From: Piscinibacter sp.
GTDB taxonomy: Bacteria; Pseudomonadota; Gammaproteobacteria; Burkholderiales; Burkholderiaceae_C
Direction: 5' to 3'
DNA length: 64,000 nucleotides
NCBI GenBank assembly: GCA_017983795.1
Contig: JAGOAS010000010.1
Span: 62,001 to 126,000 of the forward strand
The notes under the pieces were generated by a model that had not been told where the DNA came from, searched no databases, and worked only from the letters and a program-made list of their open reading frames with translations. The stretch's first letter is position 1; every line of letters begins with the position of its first letter. Below are positions 6,683 through 53,748 of the stretch, in pieces. The position numbers and the translations under genes were made by a program.

Positions 6683-9103
<2,421 letters not shown>

Positions 9104-21039: not shown

Positions 21040-22137
21040 ATGGGCGTCCGCGCGCTCTACGAAGCGACGCTCGCCGAGCGCGGCTACGCGGCCGACCCCG
21101 CGCAGCTGCGCGCGGTGGCCGCGCTGGAGCGCTGCGAGAACGAGTGGATCGCGTACAAGGCGCGCCGCAGCAATGCGGTGACGAAGATGCTGGTGCGCCC
21201 GCCGATCCCGCGCGGGGTCTACATGTTCGGCGGCGTGGGCCGGGGCAAGAGCTTCCTGATGGACTGCTTCTTCAACTCCGTGCCGCTGACGCGCAAGACT
21301 CGTCTGCACTTCCACGAGTTCATGCGTGAGGTGCACCGCGAGCTGCAGGAGCTCAAGGGCGTGGTCAACCCGCTGCAGGAGCTGGGCGCGCGCATCGCGC
21401 GGCGGCACCGGCTGATCTGCTTCGACGAGTTCCACGTCGCCGACGTGACCGACGCGATGATCCTGCACCGCCTGCTCGAATCGCTGTTCGAACACCGCGT
21501 CAGCATCGTCACCACCTCGAACTTCCACCCCGACGACCTGTACCCGAACGGCCTGCACCGCGACCGCATCCTGCCGGCGATCGCGCTGCTGAAGGACAGG
21601 CTCGAGGTCATCAACGTCGACCACGGCACCGACTACCGCCAGCGCACGCTCGAGCACGTCAAGCTCTACCACTGTCCGCTCGGGCCGGCGGCCGACGCGG
21701 CGATGAACGAGGCCTTCGAGCAGCTTGCCGAGGCGCGCGACGAGGATCCGGTGCTGCGCATCGAGCACCGCGAGCTGCGCGCGCGCCGGCGCGCCGGCGG
21801 CGTGGTGTGGTTCGACTTCAAGGTGTTGTGCGGCGGCCCGCGCTCGCAGAACGACTACCTCGAGATCGCCTCGCAGTTCCACACGGTGCTGCTCTCCGAC
21901 GTGCCGCACATGCCGCTGCGCATGGCCTCCGAGGCGCGCCGCTTCACCTGGCTGGTCGACGTGCTCTACGACCGGCGCTGCAAGCTGATCCTGTCGGCCG
22001 AGGTGCCGGCGGAGCAGCTCTACACCGAGGGGCCGCTGGCGCACGAGTTCCCGCGCACGGTGTCGCGGCTGGCGGAGATGCAGTCGGCCGAGTTCCTGGC
22101 GCTCGAGCGCCGCACGGTGGACACTTCGCTGACATGA
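21040..22137 (+). CDS. zapE: Cell division protein ZapE (AFG1-like ATPase)
   Basis: P-loop ATPase of the AFG1/ZapE family, linked in E. coli to Z-ring constriction and in mitochondria to clearance of membrane proteins. The 365 residues contain MFGGVGRGKSFLMD (Walker A at about 64-71) and RLICFDEFHVAD (Walker B). It starts 7 bases after lpdA, an arrangement I recall as common in Burkholderiales. Its stop codon lies inside CTGACATGA (22129-22137), which is repeated exactly 77 bases later at the start of the next gene. Confidence 0.92.
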   Translation: MGVRALYEATLAERGYAADPAQLRAVAALERCENEWIAYKARRSNAVTKMLVRPPIPRGVYMFGGVGRGKSFLMDCFFNSVPLTRKTRLHFHEFMREVHRELQELKGVVNPLQELGARIARRHRLICFDEFHVADVTDAMILHRLLESLFEHRVSIVTTSNFHPDDLYPNGLHRDRILPAIALLKDRLEVINVDHGTDYRQRTLEHVKLYHCPLGPAADAAMNEAFEQLAEARDEDPVLRIEHRELRARRRAGGVVWFDFKVLCGGPRSQNDYLEIASQFHTVLLSDVPHMPLRMASEARRFTWLVDVLYDRRCKLILSAEVPAEQLYTEGPLAHEFPRTVSRLAEMQSAEFLALERRTVDTSLT

Positions 22138-22140
22138 CCG

Positions 22141-22213
22141 CCCCAAGCTCGCTTCGCTCGCTGCCCCCAGGGGGCGCTCAGTGGCTTCGGAACGGCCGTG
22201 CGCCACTGACATG
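22141..22213 (+). repeat. Dispersed intergenic repeat, copy 1, ending at a start codon
   Basis: This 73-base segment is nearly identical to the reverse complement of 52185-52260. It starts CCCCAAGCTCGCTTCG and ends GCGCCACTGACATG, with ATG the start codon of the next gene. It can fold into two hairpins: GCCCCC/GGGGGC, and CAGTGGC (22179-22185) with GCCACTG (22202-22208). It is flanked by exact 9-base direct repeats CTGACATGA at 22129-22137 and 22206-22214. The second flank shares its first 8 bases with the element end seen in copy 2, so it may be part of the element rather than a target duplication. Confidence 0.85.
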
Positions 22214-22780
22214 AAGCGCCTGCGCGTTGCCCTGCCGAGCCTGCTGTGCGTGCTGCTCGCCGCGCTCGAGCCGGCGCGTGCCGACGACAGCGCCGAGCGC
22301 TCGCGCATCGCGCGCGAGCGCGCCGAGGCGCAGGCGCGTTTCGAGGCGCGGCGGCGCGAGTGCGAGACGCGCTTCGCGGTCACCGCCTGCGTCGACGAGG
22401 CGCGTGCCGAGCACCGCCAGGCGCTGCAGCGCCTGCGCCGCGAGGAGGGCGTGCTCGACGAGGCGCAGCGCCGCCAGCGCGCCGCGGCGCGCATGGCGGC
22501 CATCGAGGCGAAGCAGCGCGCCGAGCGCGAACGGGCGAATGCGCCGCGCGCGGAGCGTCCGGGGGTGTCGCCGCAGCTGCGGCCACCGCGCCAGCCGGCT
22601 GCGGCGCCGAAAGCGGCATCGGCGCCGGCCAGCGCGCCGGATCGTTCGGCCGAAGAGGCGCGCAGCCGCGCCCGCTTCGAGGCGCGCCGGCGCGACGCGC
22701 GCGAGCACCGCGAGCAGGCCGAACAGCGCGAGCAGAACGGAAAGAAGGCCGCGCCGCTGCCGGATCCGGCAGCGCGCTGA
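22211..22780 (+). CDS. Exported charged coiled-coil protein of unknown function
   Basis: Unrecognised protein of 189 residues. It has a signal peptide (MKRLRVALPSLLCVLLAALE, likely cut after PARA), then long Arg/Glu/Ala-rich helices. Two cysteines, Cys51 and Cys60, lie in ECETRFAVTACVDEAR and could form a disulfide in the periplasm. The block ARFEARRR appears twice, near residues 42-49 and 155-162, suggesting internal duplication. A Pro/Ala linker lies between. The ATG belongs to the repeat element; a GTG in frame at 22181 would lie inside the repeat and is less likely. It is convergent with the PP2C gene, 7 bases away. TolA-like or adaptor roles are only guesses. Confidence 0.75.
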   Translation: MKRLRVALPSLLCVLLAALEPARADDSAERSRIARERAEAQARFEARRRECETRFAVTACVDEARAEHRQALQRLRREEGVLDEAQRRQRAAARMAAIEAKQRAERERANAPRAERPGVSPQLRPPRQPAAAPKAASAPASAPDRSAEEARSRARFEARRRDAREHREQAEQREQNGKKAAPLPDPAAR

Positions 22781-50843: not shown

Positions 50844-52187
50844 TCAGCGCAGCCGCTCGACCCCCAAACCTTCGAGGGGGATGGGCGCTTCGCGTCCCTC
50901 CATCACTTGCGCGAGCGCAAAGGCCGAGCCGCAGGCCAGCGCCCAGCCGCTCGAGCCATGGCCGAGGTTGAGCCAGACGCCTTCGGCGCCGCTTGCGCCG
51001 ATGACCGGCGGGCCGTCGGGCAGCATGGGCCGCGCACCCTTCCAGCGCTGCACCTGGCTCATGCGGCCCGCGCCGGGGAACCAGTCGTCGAGCACCTTGT
51101 AGAGCGTCTCGAGGGCGCGCGGGTCGTGCTTCTCGAGCGTGCCGCCGAGCTCGGCGCTGCCGGCCACGCGCACGCGCTGGCCGATGCGGCTGATCGCCAC
51201 CTTGTAGCGCTCGTCCATCAGCGCGGCACGCGGCGCGCGTTCGGCGGCGCTGTCCTCGGGGCGCAGCGGCGCAGTGATCGAATAGCCGTGCACGGCGCGC
51301 AGCGGCAGGCGCAGGCCGAGCGGGCGCAGCAGCTCGGCCGAGCCCATCGCCGCGCAGACCACCACCGCGTCGAAGCTCTCGCTCACCGCCTCGAGCGGCG
51401 CGGGTTCGGTGGCCGGCCCGCCGTTCTTCGAGGACGCCGGCTCGATGACGAGCTGCGTCGATTCGGCTGGCGGCATGTAGCGGTGCACCACCTGCGGTTG
51501 CGTGCCGGGCACGAGGCGCTGCACCTCGGTGTGGAAGCACCAGCGTGCGCCCAGCTTCTGCGCCTCGTGGCGCAGCAGGTGCGCGAACTGGCGGCAGTTG
51601 CCGACCTCGTCGTCGGGCAGGTGCACGCCGGCGTGCAGCGGCGTGTCGGGGTTGAGCGCCGGCTCGAGCTCGCGGCAGCGCGCCGCGTCGACGAGGTGGA
51701 AGCGGTTGCCCAGCTCGGTGAGCAGCTTGAGCCCCGGCCGCGCGGCGGCGAGGTCGGATTCGCTGCGCAGCAGCACCAGGTAGCCGCTCTCGCGTTCGTA
51801 CTCGAGCTGCAGCGCCTTGGTCAGCTCGTGCAGCCGGTGGCGGCTGAACACGGCCAGGCGCTGCATGCGCGTGCGGTTGGCCTGCCAGGCCTCGGTGCGG
51901 CAGGCGCGCCACCAGCGCCACATCCAGCCGAGCAGGGCCGGGTCGAGGCTGGCGCGCACGCGCACCGGCGCGTGCCGGCTGAGCATCATGCGCAGCACCT
52001 TCCAGGGCATGCCGGGCGCGGCCCAGGGCGTGACGTAGCCGGGCGCCACGACGCCGGCGTTGGCGAAGCTGGTCTCGGCGGCGACGCTGCCGCGGCGCTC
52101 GAAGACGGTGACCTCGTGGCCGGCGGCCGCGAGTTCGTAGGCAGTGGTGACGCCGACGATGCCGGCGCCGATGACGGCGATGCGCAT
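50844..52187 (-). CDS. dadA: D-amino acid dehydrogenase (DadA-like)
   Basis: FAD enzyme of the DAO family that oxidises D-amino acids and feeds electrons to quinones. The FAD motif GAGIVGVTTAYELA is at 7-20, followed by AETSFANAGVVAPGYVTPWAAPG, and the C-terminal signature LNLGHGSSGWALACGSA. The 447 residues include a Pro/Glu/Ser-rich stretch at about 228-270, roughly 30 residues longer than in E. coli DadA, while the C-terminus is shorter. The ATG is supplied by the repeat element upstream. The upstream amidase in the same direction could provide substrate, which is inference. Confidence 0.92.
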   Translation of the reverse strand: MRIAVIGAGIVGVTTAYELAAAGHEVTVFERRGSVAAETSFANAGVVAPGYVTPWAAPGMPWKVLRMMLSRHAPVRVRASLDPALLGWMWRWWRACRTEAWQANRTRMQRLAVFSRHRLHELTKALQLEYERESGYLVLLRSESDLAAARPGLKLLTELGNRFHLVDAARCRELEPALNPDTPLHAGVHLPDDEVGNCRQFAHLLRHEAQKLGARWCFHTEVQRLVPGTQPQVVHRYMPPAESTQLVIEPASSKNGGPATEPAPLEAVSESFDAVVVCAAMGSAELLRPLGLRLPLRAVHGYSITAPLRPEDSAAERAPRAALMDERYKVAISRIGQRVRVAGSAELGGTLEKHDPRALETLYKVLDDWFPGAGRMSQVQRWKGARPMLPDGPPVIGASGAEGVWLNLGHGSSGWALACGSAFALAQVMEGREAPIPLEGLGVERLR

Positions 52188-52267: not shown

Positions 52268-53587
52268 CTAGGCGCTTCCACCGCGCGACGGTGCGAGCGC
52301 CGCCTCGATGGCCAGCGAGGCATCGAGCACCGCGTCGTCGCGCAGCGCGCCGCTCCACACCATCAGGCCGACCGGCATCTCGCCCGCGCCGTGGCAGGGC
52401 AGCGAGAGCGCGCAGCCGTCGAGGAAGTTGATCGCACTGGGGTTGCGCAGCAGCGCGCCGTTGGCGGCGAAGAAGGCCTCGTCGCTGGCGACGAGCGGGG
52501 CGATGGCCGGGGCGATGAGGGGCACGGTGGGGCTCAGCATGGCGTCGAAGCCGGGAGGCTCGCCCATGGCGGCTTCGGTGCGCGCGATCCAGTCGCGCCG
52601 CGCCCAGGTGAGCTCGATATAGTCGGCCGCGCTCATCTTCTCGCCGCGGCGGATGCGCAGCGCGACGCGCGGGTCGTACTGGTCGGCCTTGGTCGCCAGC
52701 AGCCTGCGGTGCCAGGCCCAGCTCTCGGCGGCGGAGAAGCCGCCGGCGGCATTCAGCGCGGCGAGTTCGCCGAGCTGCGGCAGTGCGAGCTCCTCGACGC
52801 GCGCGCCGGCATTGCGCAGCGTGGCGAGCGCGCGCTGGAACGCCGCGGCGACGGCCGGCTCCAGCCCGTCGAGCATCAGCGTGGTCGGCACGCCGAGGCG
52901 CAGCGCGGCGAGCGGCTTGTGCGCCAGCTTGACGCTGCGCGCCGCCAGCACTTCGTGCACGGTGAGCGCGTCGCGCACGTTCGTCGTGATCGCGCAGACG
53001 GTGTCCAGCGTGGTCGACAGCGGGATCGCGCCATCGGTGGGCACCAGCCGCGCGGTGTTCTTGAAGCCGACCAGCCCCTGCAGCGCGGCCGGGATGCGGA
53101 TCGAGCCGCCGGTGTCCGAGCCGAGCGCCGCCCAGGCGGCACCGGCGGCCACCGAGACCGCGCCGCCGGAGGTCGAGCCGCCGGGGATGCGCGGCGTGGC
53201 GTCGAGCGCCGCCGTCGCGACATTGGCCGGCGTGCCGTGGTGCGGGTTGATGCCCACGCCGGAGAATGCGAACTCGCTCATGTTGGTGCGCCCCACGAAG
53301 GCCGCGCCGGCCGCGCGCAGCCGTGCGACAGCCGGAGCATCGGCGCGCGCCGGCGGCGCGTCGGCCAGCACGCGGCTGGCCGCGGCCGTGGTCTGGCCGG
53401 CCACGTCGAACAGGTCCTTGATGCTCACCGGCCGCCCGGCCAGCGGCGCATCGGGGCGCGCGGCCCGCGCCTGCGCGCCGGCCTCGTCGAACGTGGTCAG
53501 GGTGAAGGCGTGGCGGCAGGCGTCGGACGTCGCGGCGACGACGGCGGCTTCGAGCTGCTCGCGGGCAGCGCTGAGGTCAATGGGCAT
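52268..53587 (-). CDS. Amidase signature family hydrolase
   Basis: Ser-Ser-Lys amidase of 439 residues. Lys57 is in RPVSIKDLFDVAG, the cis-serine is Ser138 or Ser140 in GGSTSGG, and the nucleophile is Ser162 in GSDTGGSIRIPA. It is not clearly GatA, since no gatB or gatC is near and the C-terminal part is shorter. The substrate is unknown. The ATG at 53587 (MPIDLSAAREQ) is preferred; the frame stays open upstream to 53734, into the rpsB leader. It precedes dadA, with the repeat between. Confidence 0.9.
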   Translation of the reverse strand: MPIDLSAAREQLEAAVVAATSDACRHAFTLTTFDEAGAQARAARPDAPLAGRPVSIKDLFDVAGQTTAAASRVLADAPPARADAPAVARLRAAGAAFVGRTNMSEFAFSGVGINPHHGTPANVATAALDATPRIPGGSTSGGAVSVAAGAAWAALGSDTGGSIRIPAALQGLVGFKNTARLVPTDGAIPLSTTLDTVCAITTNVRDALTVHEVLAARSVKLAHKPLAALRLGVPTTLMLDGLEPAVAAAFQRALATLRNAGARVEELALPQLGELAALNAAGGFSAAESWAWHRRLLATKADQYDPRVALRIRRGEKMSAADYIELTWARRDWIARTEAAMGEPPGFDAMLSPTVPLIAPAIAPLVASDEAFFAANGALLRNPSAINFLDGCALSLPCHGAGEMPVGLMVWSGALRDDAVLDASLAIEAALAPSRGGSA

Positions 53588-53598
53588 AAGTGGCGTGG

Positions 53599-53634
53599 TA
53601 CACTCCGCGAGTTTTGTCCGGGGCGATCCCGGAC
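53599..53634 (+). promoter_or_regulatory. Candidate rpsB promoter and leader hairpin
   Basis: TACACT at 53599-53604 is a possible -10, and downstream GTCCGGG (53616-53622) with CCCGGAC (53628-53634) makes a 7-bp hairpin. The rest of the roughly 140-base leader to the rpsB ATG has no recognised motif. Autoregulation of rpsB-tsf by S2 through the leader is known in E. coli; whether it applies here is open. Confidence 0.4.
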
Positions 53635-53748
53635 GAAGCAAATCGCGAAGCCGGCCGCTGAAGGTGTCGCGACGCTGCCTGACAGATTGGTGTCGAGGTG
53701 TGTCGAAGCGATTCGGGCCGGATTCTAGAACCAACCTTTGGAGTCCCC

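Follow-up and report, generated by a model that had tools for sequence, protein, structure and literature searches.

The window, that is, the whole 64,000-nt stretch of Piscinibacter sp. DNA that was analysed, carries a short repeat element between zapE and the gene that follows it on the same strand (Table 1). A preliminary description of this DNA had reported exact 9-base direct repeats around the element, and these are present as described: CTGACATGA lies at 22129-22137 and at 22206-22214 and has no other exact match in the 64 kb. The first repeat comprises zapE codons and the zapE stop TGA (22135-22137), and the second holds the ATG of the next gene (22211-22213). Deleting 77 bases leaves CTGACATGAAG, in which stop and start overlap as ATGA, and a family member (L021) matches this sequence at its zapE end. 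Absent from that description and added here is a mini open reading frame (mini-ORF) within the repeat. Its ATG at 22134 overlaps the zapE stop, and its TGA, reached after 26 codons, overlaps the ATG of the next gene at 22211. The consensus copy reads ATG-AAA-CCC-CCA at its left end and CAC-TGA at its right end, followed by one base and the ATG of the next gene, and has 25 codons. The window copy is 2 bases shorter than the consensus at hairpin 2, and its 26-codon ORF ends at the TGA of the next gene's ATGA. Hairpin 3 contains the consensus TGA, at which the mini-ORF ends in the commonest copies. A GTG at 22181, inside the element and in frame with the downstream gene, is an alternative start for that gene. 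The N-terminus of the downstream protein looks like a signal peptide by eye, and the protein matched no Pfam family. At the second copy in the window, the amidase stop TAG lies one base ahead of the mini-ORF start. A weak model match at 7227-7308 on the minus strand (16 bits, E 0.016) is probably due to chance.

Table 1. Features of the two element-bearing junctions, numbered within the window
Feature	Position	Strand	Basis or remark
zapE, AFG1-like ATPase, upstream gene	21040..22137	+	Pfam PF03969, E 8.4e-124; stop TGA 22135-22137
Relay mini-ORF, 26 codons and stop: MTAPSSLRSLPPGGAQWLRNGRAPLT*	22134..22214	+	ORF reading and frame tests
Repeat element, left-end ATG to right-end ATG, boundaries approximate	22134..22213	+	R1 match 22134-22214, 96.2 bits
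Hairpin 2, GCCCCC-A-GGGGGC (consensus CCCCCC-GA-GGGGG)	22163..22175	+	
Hairpin 3, arms TCAGTGGC (22178-22185) and GCCACTGA (22202-22209)	22178..22209	+	
Downstream gene, 189 aa	22211..22780	+	ORF list; homologues after zapE in 7/7 congeners
Second copy in the window, 112.1 bits	52184..52266	-	Intact 25-codon mini-ORF 52266-52189; TGA one base before next ATG
Amidase gene, upstream of second copy, start codon provisional	52268..53734	-	Pfam PF01425, E 4.2e-70
FAD-dependent oxidoreductase gene, downstream of second copy	50844..52187	-	Pfam PF01266, E 8.5e-65

We read the zapE end in 29 relatives, including seven congeners (L014-L020). None has the repeat at this junction, as judged by the absence of any match to the covariance model of the repeat (R1) better than E 0.35. 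Six of the seven congeners show ATGA at the zapE end, which supports the earlier suggestion that the element entered a coupled junction; the remaining one (L014) has TGA and ATG separated by 4 nt. The ATG of the congener ATGA opens a frame of 170-210 codons in five loci and a frame that runs off the locus in L016, and a homologue of the downstream protein follows zapE in all seven congeners. Among all 29 relatives, 14 have ATGA at this end, and in L021 it reads exactly ctgacATGAAG. The CTGAC to the left of the element is zapE coding sequence and is seen in relatives without the element. The right-hand CTGA, as had been cautioned, belongs to the element, being its consensus end (CACTGA-N-ATG), and any target duplication can therefore be at most about CATGA. 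We dismissed a chance 9-mer repeat in view of the empty sites, even though the 9-mer on the right is a composite. In another genus (L038, genome G034), the zapE junction holds a different repeated segment, GCGGGACAGACCGGAGCGCAGCGACGCTCTGTCCTCAACTGATC, in two copies.

Empty sites in congeners were read for seven of eight other copies of the own genome, and a search with the joined flanks found none for the eighth (L054). They are TGATG for L052 (6/6 read), a TGA 1-2 nt ahead of the ATG for L051 (5/5), TGACATG for L058 (2/3), and ATGA for L056 (1/1), while L049, L050, and L055 have gaps of several nucleotides. One congener (G003) carries an orthologous copy (L097) at the L058 site. Insertion at a closely coupled stop/start, which serves as a criterion for the mycobacterial interspersed repetitive unit (MIRU), is thus seen at the zapE site and at four of the seven further sites.

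The repeat belongs to a dispersed family. BLAST gave 12 matches in the own genome, the window element included, and R1 was built from nine of them. R1 finds 35 matches in the own genome at E<=0.1, the five weakest of which were left out of the reading, and 70 matches at E<=1e-12 across eight of eight congeneric genomes, own genome included, with up to 20 close copies per genome (G006). With stricter filters, 38 of 120 family genomes have matches. In named genomes, at least 119 stretches contain a 28-base core of the repeat. The 80 stretches listed are mostly from Burkholderiales and Rhodocyclales by name (Piscinibacter, Rubrivivax, Leptothrix, Burkholderia, Achromobacter, Thauera, Azoarcus, and Methyloversatilis), with a few other hosts, such as Stutzerimonas and Stagnimonas, which are Gammaproteobacteria. 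For a first set we oriented 164 copies from 38 genomes. Congeneric genomes supplied 70 of them and other genera 94, namely the copies with automatic loci and 60 regions drawn, in their order, from among the matches listed by the family search. Flanking genes were called with a codon model whose training set was eight genes from the window. In 143 of the 164 copies the element lies in sense between two co-directional genes; 13 have only the downstream gene co-directional, four only the upstream gene, one is antisense to both, and three are undecided. The uneven spread over intergenic DNA that the preliminary description anticipated is therefore borne out. The downstream start falls exactly at the ATG of the model in 117 of the 164 copies.

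The mini-ORF runs from the left end of the element to a stop on or beside the downstream start, an arrangement we call a relay, in 132 of the 164 copies. When the same copies are read in the two shifted frames, only 14/152 and 35/152 relay. The 32 other copies comprise 13 with an early stop, nine with no downstream start found, seven fused in frame, and three with no start codon; three of the 13 early-stop copies are tandem units in which the start of the next unit follows. The right junction of the 132 relays is TGA-N-ATG in 76, ATGA (a -4 overlap) in 31, TGATG in six, and at other distances in 19. A co-directional upstream stop is present for 119 relays, and in 109 of these the mini-ORF starts within -8 to +20 nt of it, the left junction being ATGA in 26, one base apart in 28, and TGATG in 12.

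The right end CTGACATGA gives a stop in two frames and a start in the third, so a naive expectation of one in three was not used. We instead re-paired the 5′ and 3′ halves of the element between copies. The real combinations give 127 relays in 142 copies, against a mean of 71.6 and a maximum of 88 in 2,000 re-pairings; the 22 of 164 copies dropped are four without a recognisable hairpin 2, the rest being without a start codon or without a downstream start within 20 nt. Splitting at the hairpin 3 loop instead yields 126 relays in 141 copies versus a re-paired mean of 66.9 and a maximum of 85. With one copy per 90% identity cluster, 32.4 of 37.9 relay, versus 16.9 on re-pairing and 27 at most. 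Hence, insertions and deletions in the two halves compensate one another. The length of the 5′ half modulo 3 is 0, 1, and 2 in 89, 38, and 15 copies, respectively. Since this DNA is used in each of its three frames, what is kept is the open frame and no single peptide. This bears on the idea that the mini-ORF encodes a functional small protein, which would account for the persistence of a frame of about 25-27 codons in most copies and for a common peptide (..RAERRAAPKPAR.PSG.RP..) in several copies of an opposite-strand class (class B, below). We rejected it and hold it to be the least probable of the alternatives, as the DNA is read in all three phases, class B uses the other strand, and no one peptide is kept.

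RNAalifold predicts two hairpins, and a further one is possible. Hairpin 3 has at least 6 bp in 133/162 copies versus 13% of shuffles, and at least 8 bp in 114/162 versus 0.7%. Its 5′ arm occurs in 79 different sequences, so that the arms vary between copies yet stay paired; when the inner 6-bp arms are re-paired between copies, a mean of only 12 of 133 is complementary, the 133 being chosen for having the stem. Variants with another, longer palindrome at the expected hairpin 3 position occur in L280, L292, L334, and L301. Such pairing, together with the sense orientation of the copies and the open frame found in most shuffled interiors, would also fit a structured RNA or DNA element acting in mRNA stability, processing, or transcription signalling, whose open frame is a by-product of GC-rich palindromes. 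We consider this unlikely, though the strongest of the alternatives, since the two halves are frame-coordinated and the relay lies mostly in one of three frames. In addition, none of the Rfam families attained its gathering threshold in the 12 own-genome loci, which speaks against a known Rfam RNA there, and the hairpins lack a T run behind them in the copies inspected, so they do not form typical intrinsic terminators. A Shine-Dalgarno match of at most 3 nt inside the element is all that the downstream start has in 115 of the 132 relays, a count made for these copies only. The mini-ORF's own start has a match of at least 4 nt in 44 of the 132.

Some copies stand in chains. L145 and L171 each contain three units spaced 79 nt apart, with one to four bases between the stop of each mini-ORF and the start of the unit after it. 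Tandem arrays with a spacing of about 78-83 nt, reminiscent of the MIRU variable-number tandem repeat arrays, are seen in L145, L171, L157, and L214. A repetitive extragenic palindromic (REP) element moved by a REP-associated tyrosine transposase (RAYT, of the Y1 type) would likewise be palindromic, dispersed, and tandem-forming, and an ATGA-like target agrees with the window site, where a short repeat accompanies insertion near an ATG; the pattern would then reflect target choice and purifying selection, with no relay function. We find this very improbable. A Y1 transposase was detected in only two of six carrier genomes; the four without a PF01797 match include the own genome and G006 with its 20 copies. 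The consensus has neither a GTAG nor a CGTC tag, and the frame compensation would be left unexplained.

Copies lying behind a divergent gene all relay (13/13). A TANNNT motif ending 5-11 nt before the mini-ORF start is found in eight of these 13 (L105, L151, L179, L180, L186, L188, L190, and L206), where it resembles a -10 element, and in 0 in four other segments; it is found in five of 141 copies with both genes co-directional. These promoter-proximal copies may thus begin with leaderless mini-ORFs.

A second search gave 91 model matches in 80 named loci. Removing nine without the exact 28-base core and three first-set copies left a second set of 79 copies. Here 36 of the 55 copies judged relay, compared with 7/55 in each of the shifted frames, and the mini-ORF is intact in 35/64 copies with a co-directional downstream gene versus 1/10 without (Fisher p 0.014). 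The relay is hence the rule in the window's family; elsewhere it is commoner than in shifted frames but not universal. The repeat was also found in nine plasmid records, from which six copies were read, and L043, L044, L047, and L048 relay. The L044 copy comes from a Variovorax plasmid, where its annotated neighbours are an ABC substrate-binding gene and a permease gene; the mini-ORF (1501-1587 of L044) has no gene annotated on it, and its stop precedes the annotated start by one base.

Among the weaker own-genome matches (L059-L078), nine of 20 relay, eight on the strand opposite to the model; two more frames that span the element, in L065 and L070, are not among the nine. Six of these matches (L063, L066, L067, L068, L071, and L076) form class B, whose hairpin architecture is the same and whose mini-ORF, on the opposite strand, ends at the downstream ATGA. 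The class B peptides are alike (..RAERRAAPKPAR..GLS*), and three of the frames start 22-26 nt before the edge of the model. When the other strand is read in ten copies antisense to both flanking genes, two relay (L259 and L296). In the antisense copies L278, L311, L312, L322, L329, and L124, a frame seems open across the element, and in-frame insertions inside genes are possible.

The anatomy of the copies, their empty sites, their orientation, and the coordination of their frames lead us to propose, with a probability of about 0.8, that the repeat has settled at start codons in tight co-directional junctions and that its mini-ORF relays the ribosome. Judging from the sequence, the mini-ORF probably hands the ribosome across the insertion. 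A small mobile repeat of about 77-80 bp would settle at the start codon of a gene that closely follows a co-directional gene, and the insertion would be tolerated since its sense strand forms a complete mini-ORF. This mini-ORF would start at the left end, on or beside the upstream stop, stay free of stops for about 26 codons through the hairpins, and stop on or beside the downstream start, mostly as TGA-N-ATG or ATGA. Ribosomes coming off the upstream gene would re-initiate on the mini-ORF, open the hairpins, end at the downstream ATG, and re-initiate again, turning one coupled junction into two in series. The frame may have been retained by selection on downstream expression or on a harmless insertion. 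Tentatively, and at somewhat less than even odds, we extend the relay proposal to a MIRU-like selfish element that evolved independently in Betaproteobacteria and in which the open frame, not the peptide, is selected. Lineages would have shifted frame several times and restored the relay each time; the terminal hairpin, closing just before the downstream start, would make the downstream gene strictly dependent on mini-ORF translation; and where a promoter has no co-directional gene upstream, the mini-ORF would take on a leaderless start.

Several results weigh against the relay. When the interior is shuffled and the ends and length are held constant, 68.6% of 7,600 trials still give a relay, GC-rich DNA being often open; openness is therefore weak evidence, and the case rests on frame coordination. 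The copies are related, and at 85% identity only seven clusters are left, which deprives the re-pairing test of power. R1 was built with an ATG at both ends and mildly favours such matches. In the first set, the mini-ORF is intact in 142/156 copies with a co-directional downstream gene versus 3/5 without, which is not significant (p 0.08). The downstream gene has an in-frame alternative ATG or GTG at most 47 nt upstream of its start in 13 of the 132 relays, the GTG at 22181 of the window copy included. Folding of the window copy is no better than that of shuffles (z -0.25); another copy gave z -1.53. In the second search, 15 of 43 relays have a Shine-Dalgarno match of at least 4 nt before the downstream start. 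Its 91 matches divide into 43 relays, 25 with no downstream start, nine off frame, six with an early stop, four with no start codon, and four fused, and within the 79 copies of the second set the corresponding non-relay numbers are 21, nine, six, three, and four. Two plasmid copies also fail to relay, the mini-ORF being fused in frame to the next gene in L045 and continuing out of frame in L046.

These insertions of about 77 bp into overlapping or nearly overlapping junctions, with empty sites in relatives, amount on sequence grounds alone to a natural experiment in how translation is coupled in environmental bacteria, with frame variants, chains of tandem units, and promoter-proximal copies that may be leaderless. 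They suggest a general way for a mobile element to spread through tightly packed operons without breaking them. A literature search, literal sequence words included, found no earlier description of the repeat, and the only papers that looked relevant were a review on coupling and those on REP and RU elements cited below; it left subscription literature mostly uncovered, so the repeat may already be in print.

REP elements and bacterial interspersed mosaic elements (BIMEs) with RAYTs share with the repeat that they are short, palindromic, and dispersed (PMC2817692, PMC3733652), and GTAG REPs often give flanking ORFs a stop codon and can sit inside ORFs (PMC3733652). The repeat differs in that it lacks a GTAG/CGTC tag (nine-copy consensus, by eye), has more than one hairpin, is placed at start codons, contains a complete mini-ORF, and comes without a Y1 match in four of six carriers. 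RU-1, RU-2, and RU-3 of enterobacteria, repeats of 103-168 bp resembling miniature inverted-repeat transposable elements, are small and carry open frames as the repeat does; as described, they are fused inside genes or at gene ends in other hosts, whereas here a separate ORF bridges stop and start (PMC2759123).

Of the known systems, the mycobacterial MIRU comes closest; the repeat appears to be a counterpart of it that is separate and rich in hairpins and occurs mainly in Betaproteobacteria. The MIRU described by Supply et al. in 1997 reportedly has a small ORF overlapping both neighbours, a length of about 77 bp, and tandem arrays. In a later account, MIRUs are apparently mobile units that insert at start codons, with an ORF coupled to the gene at -4 spacing (PMC12548453). 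The repeat is alike in that its small ORF overlaps or abuts the flanking stop and start (132/164, with a close left junction in 109/119). It differs in being found in another phylum, with Piscinibacter, Rubrivivax, Burkholderia, Thauera, and Stutzerimonas among the hosts listed, and not in mycobacteria; in having a strongly paired, variable terminal hairpin, the use of all three phases, and an opposite-strand class; and in its right junction, which is mostly TGA-N-ATG (76/132), with the -4 overlap in 31. Compared by description rather than by sequence, the repeat is in our view not to be filed as a MIRU itself and is instead a variant of the MIRU kind.
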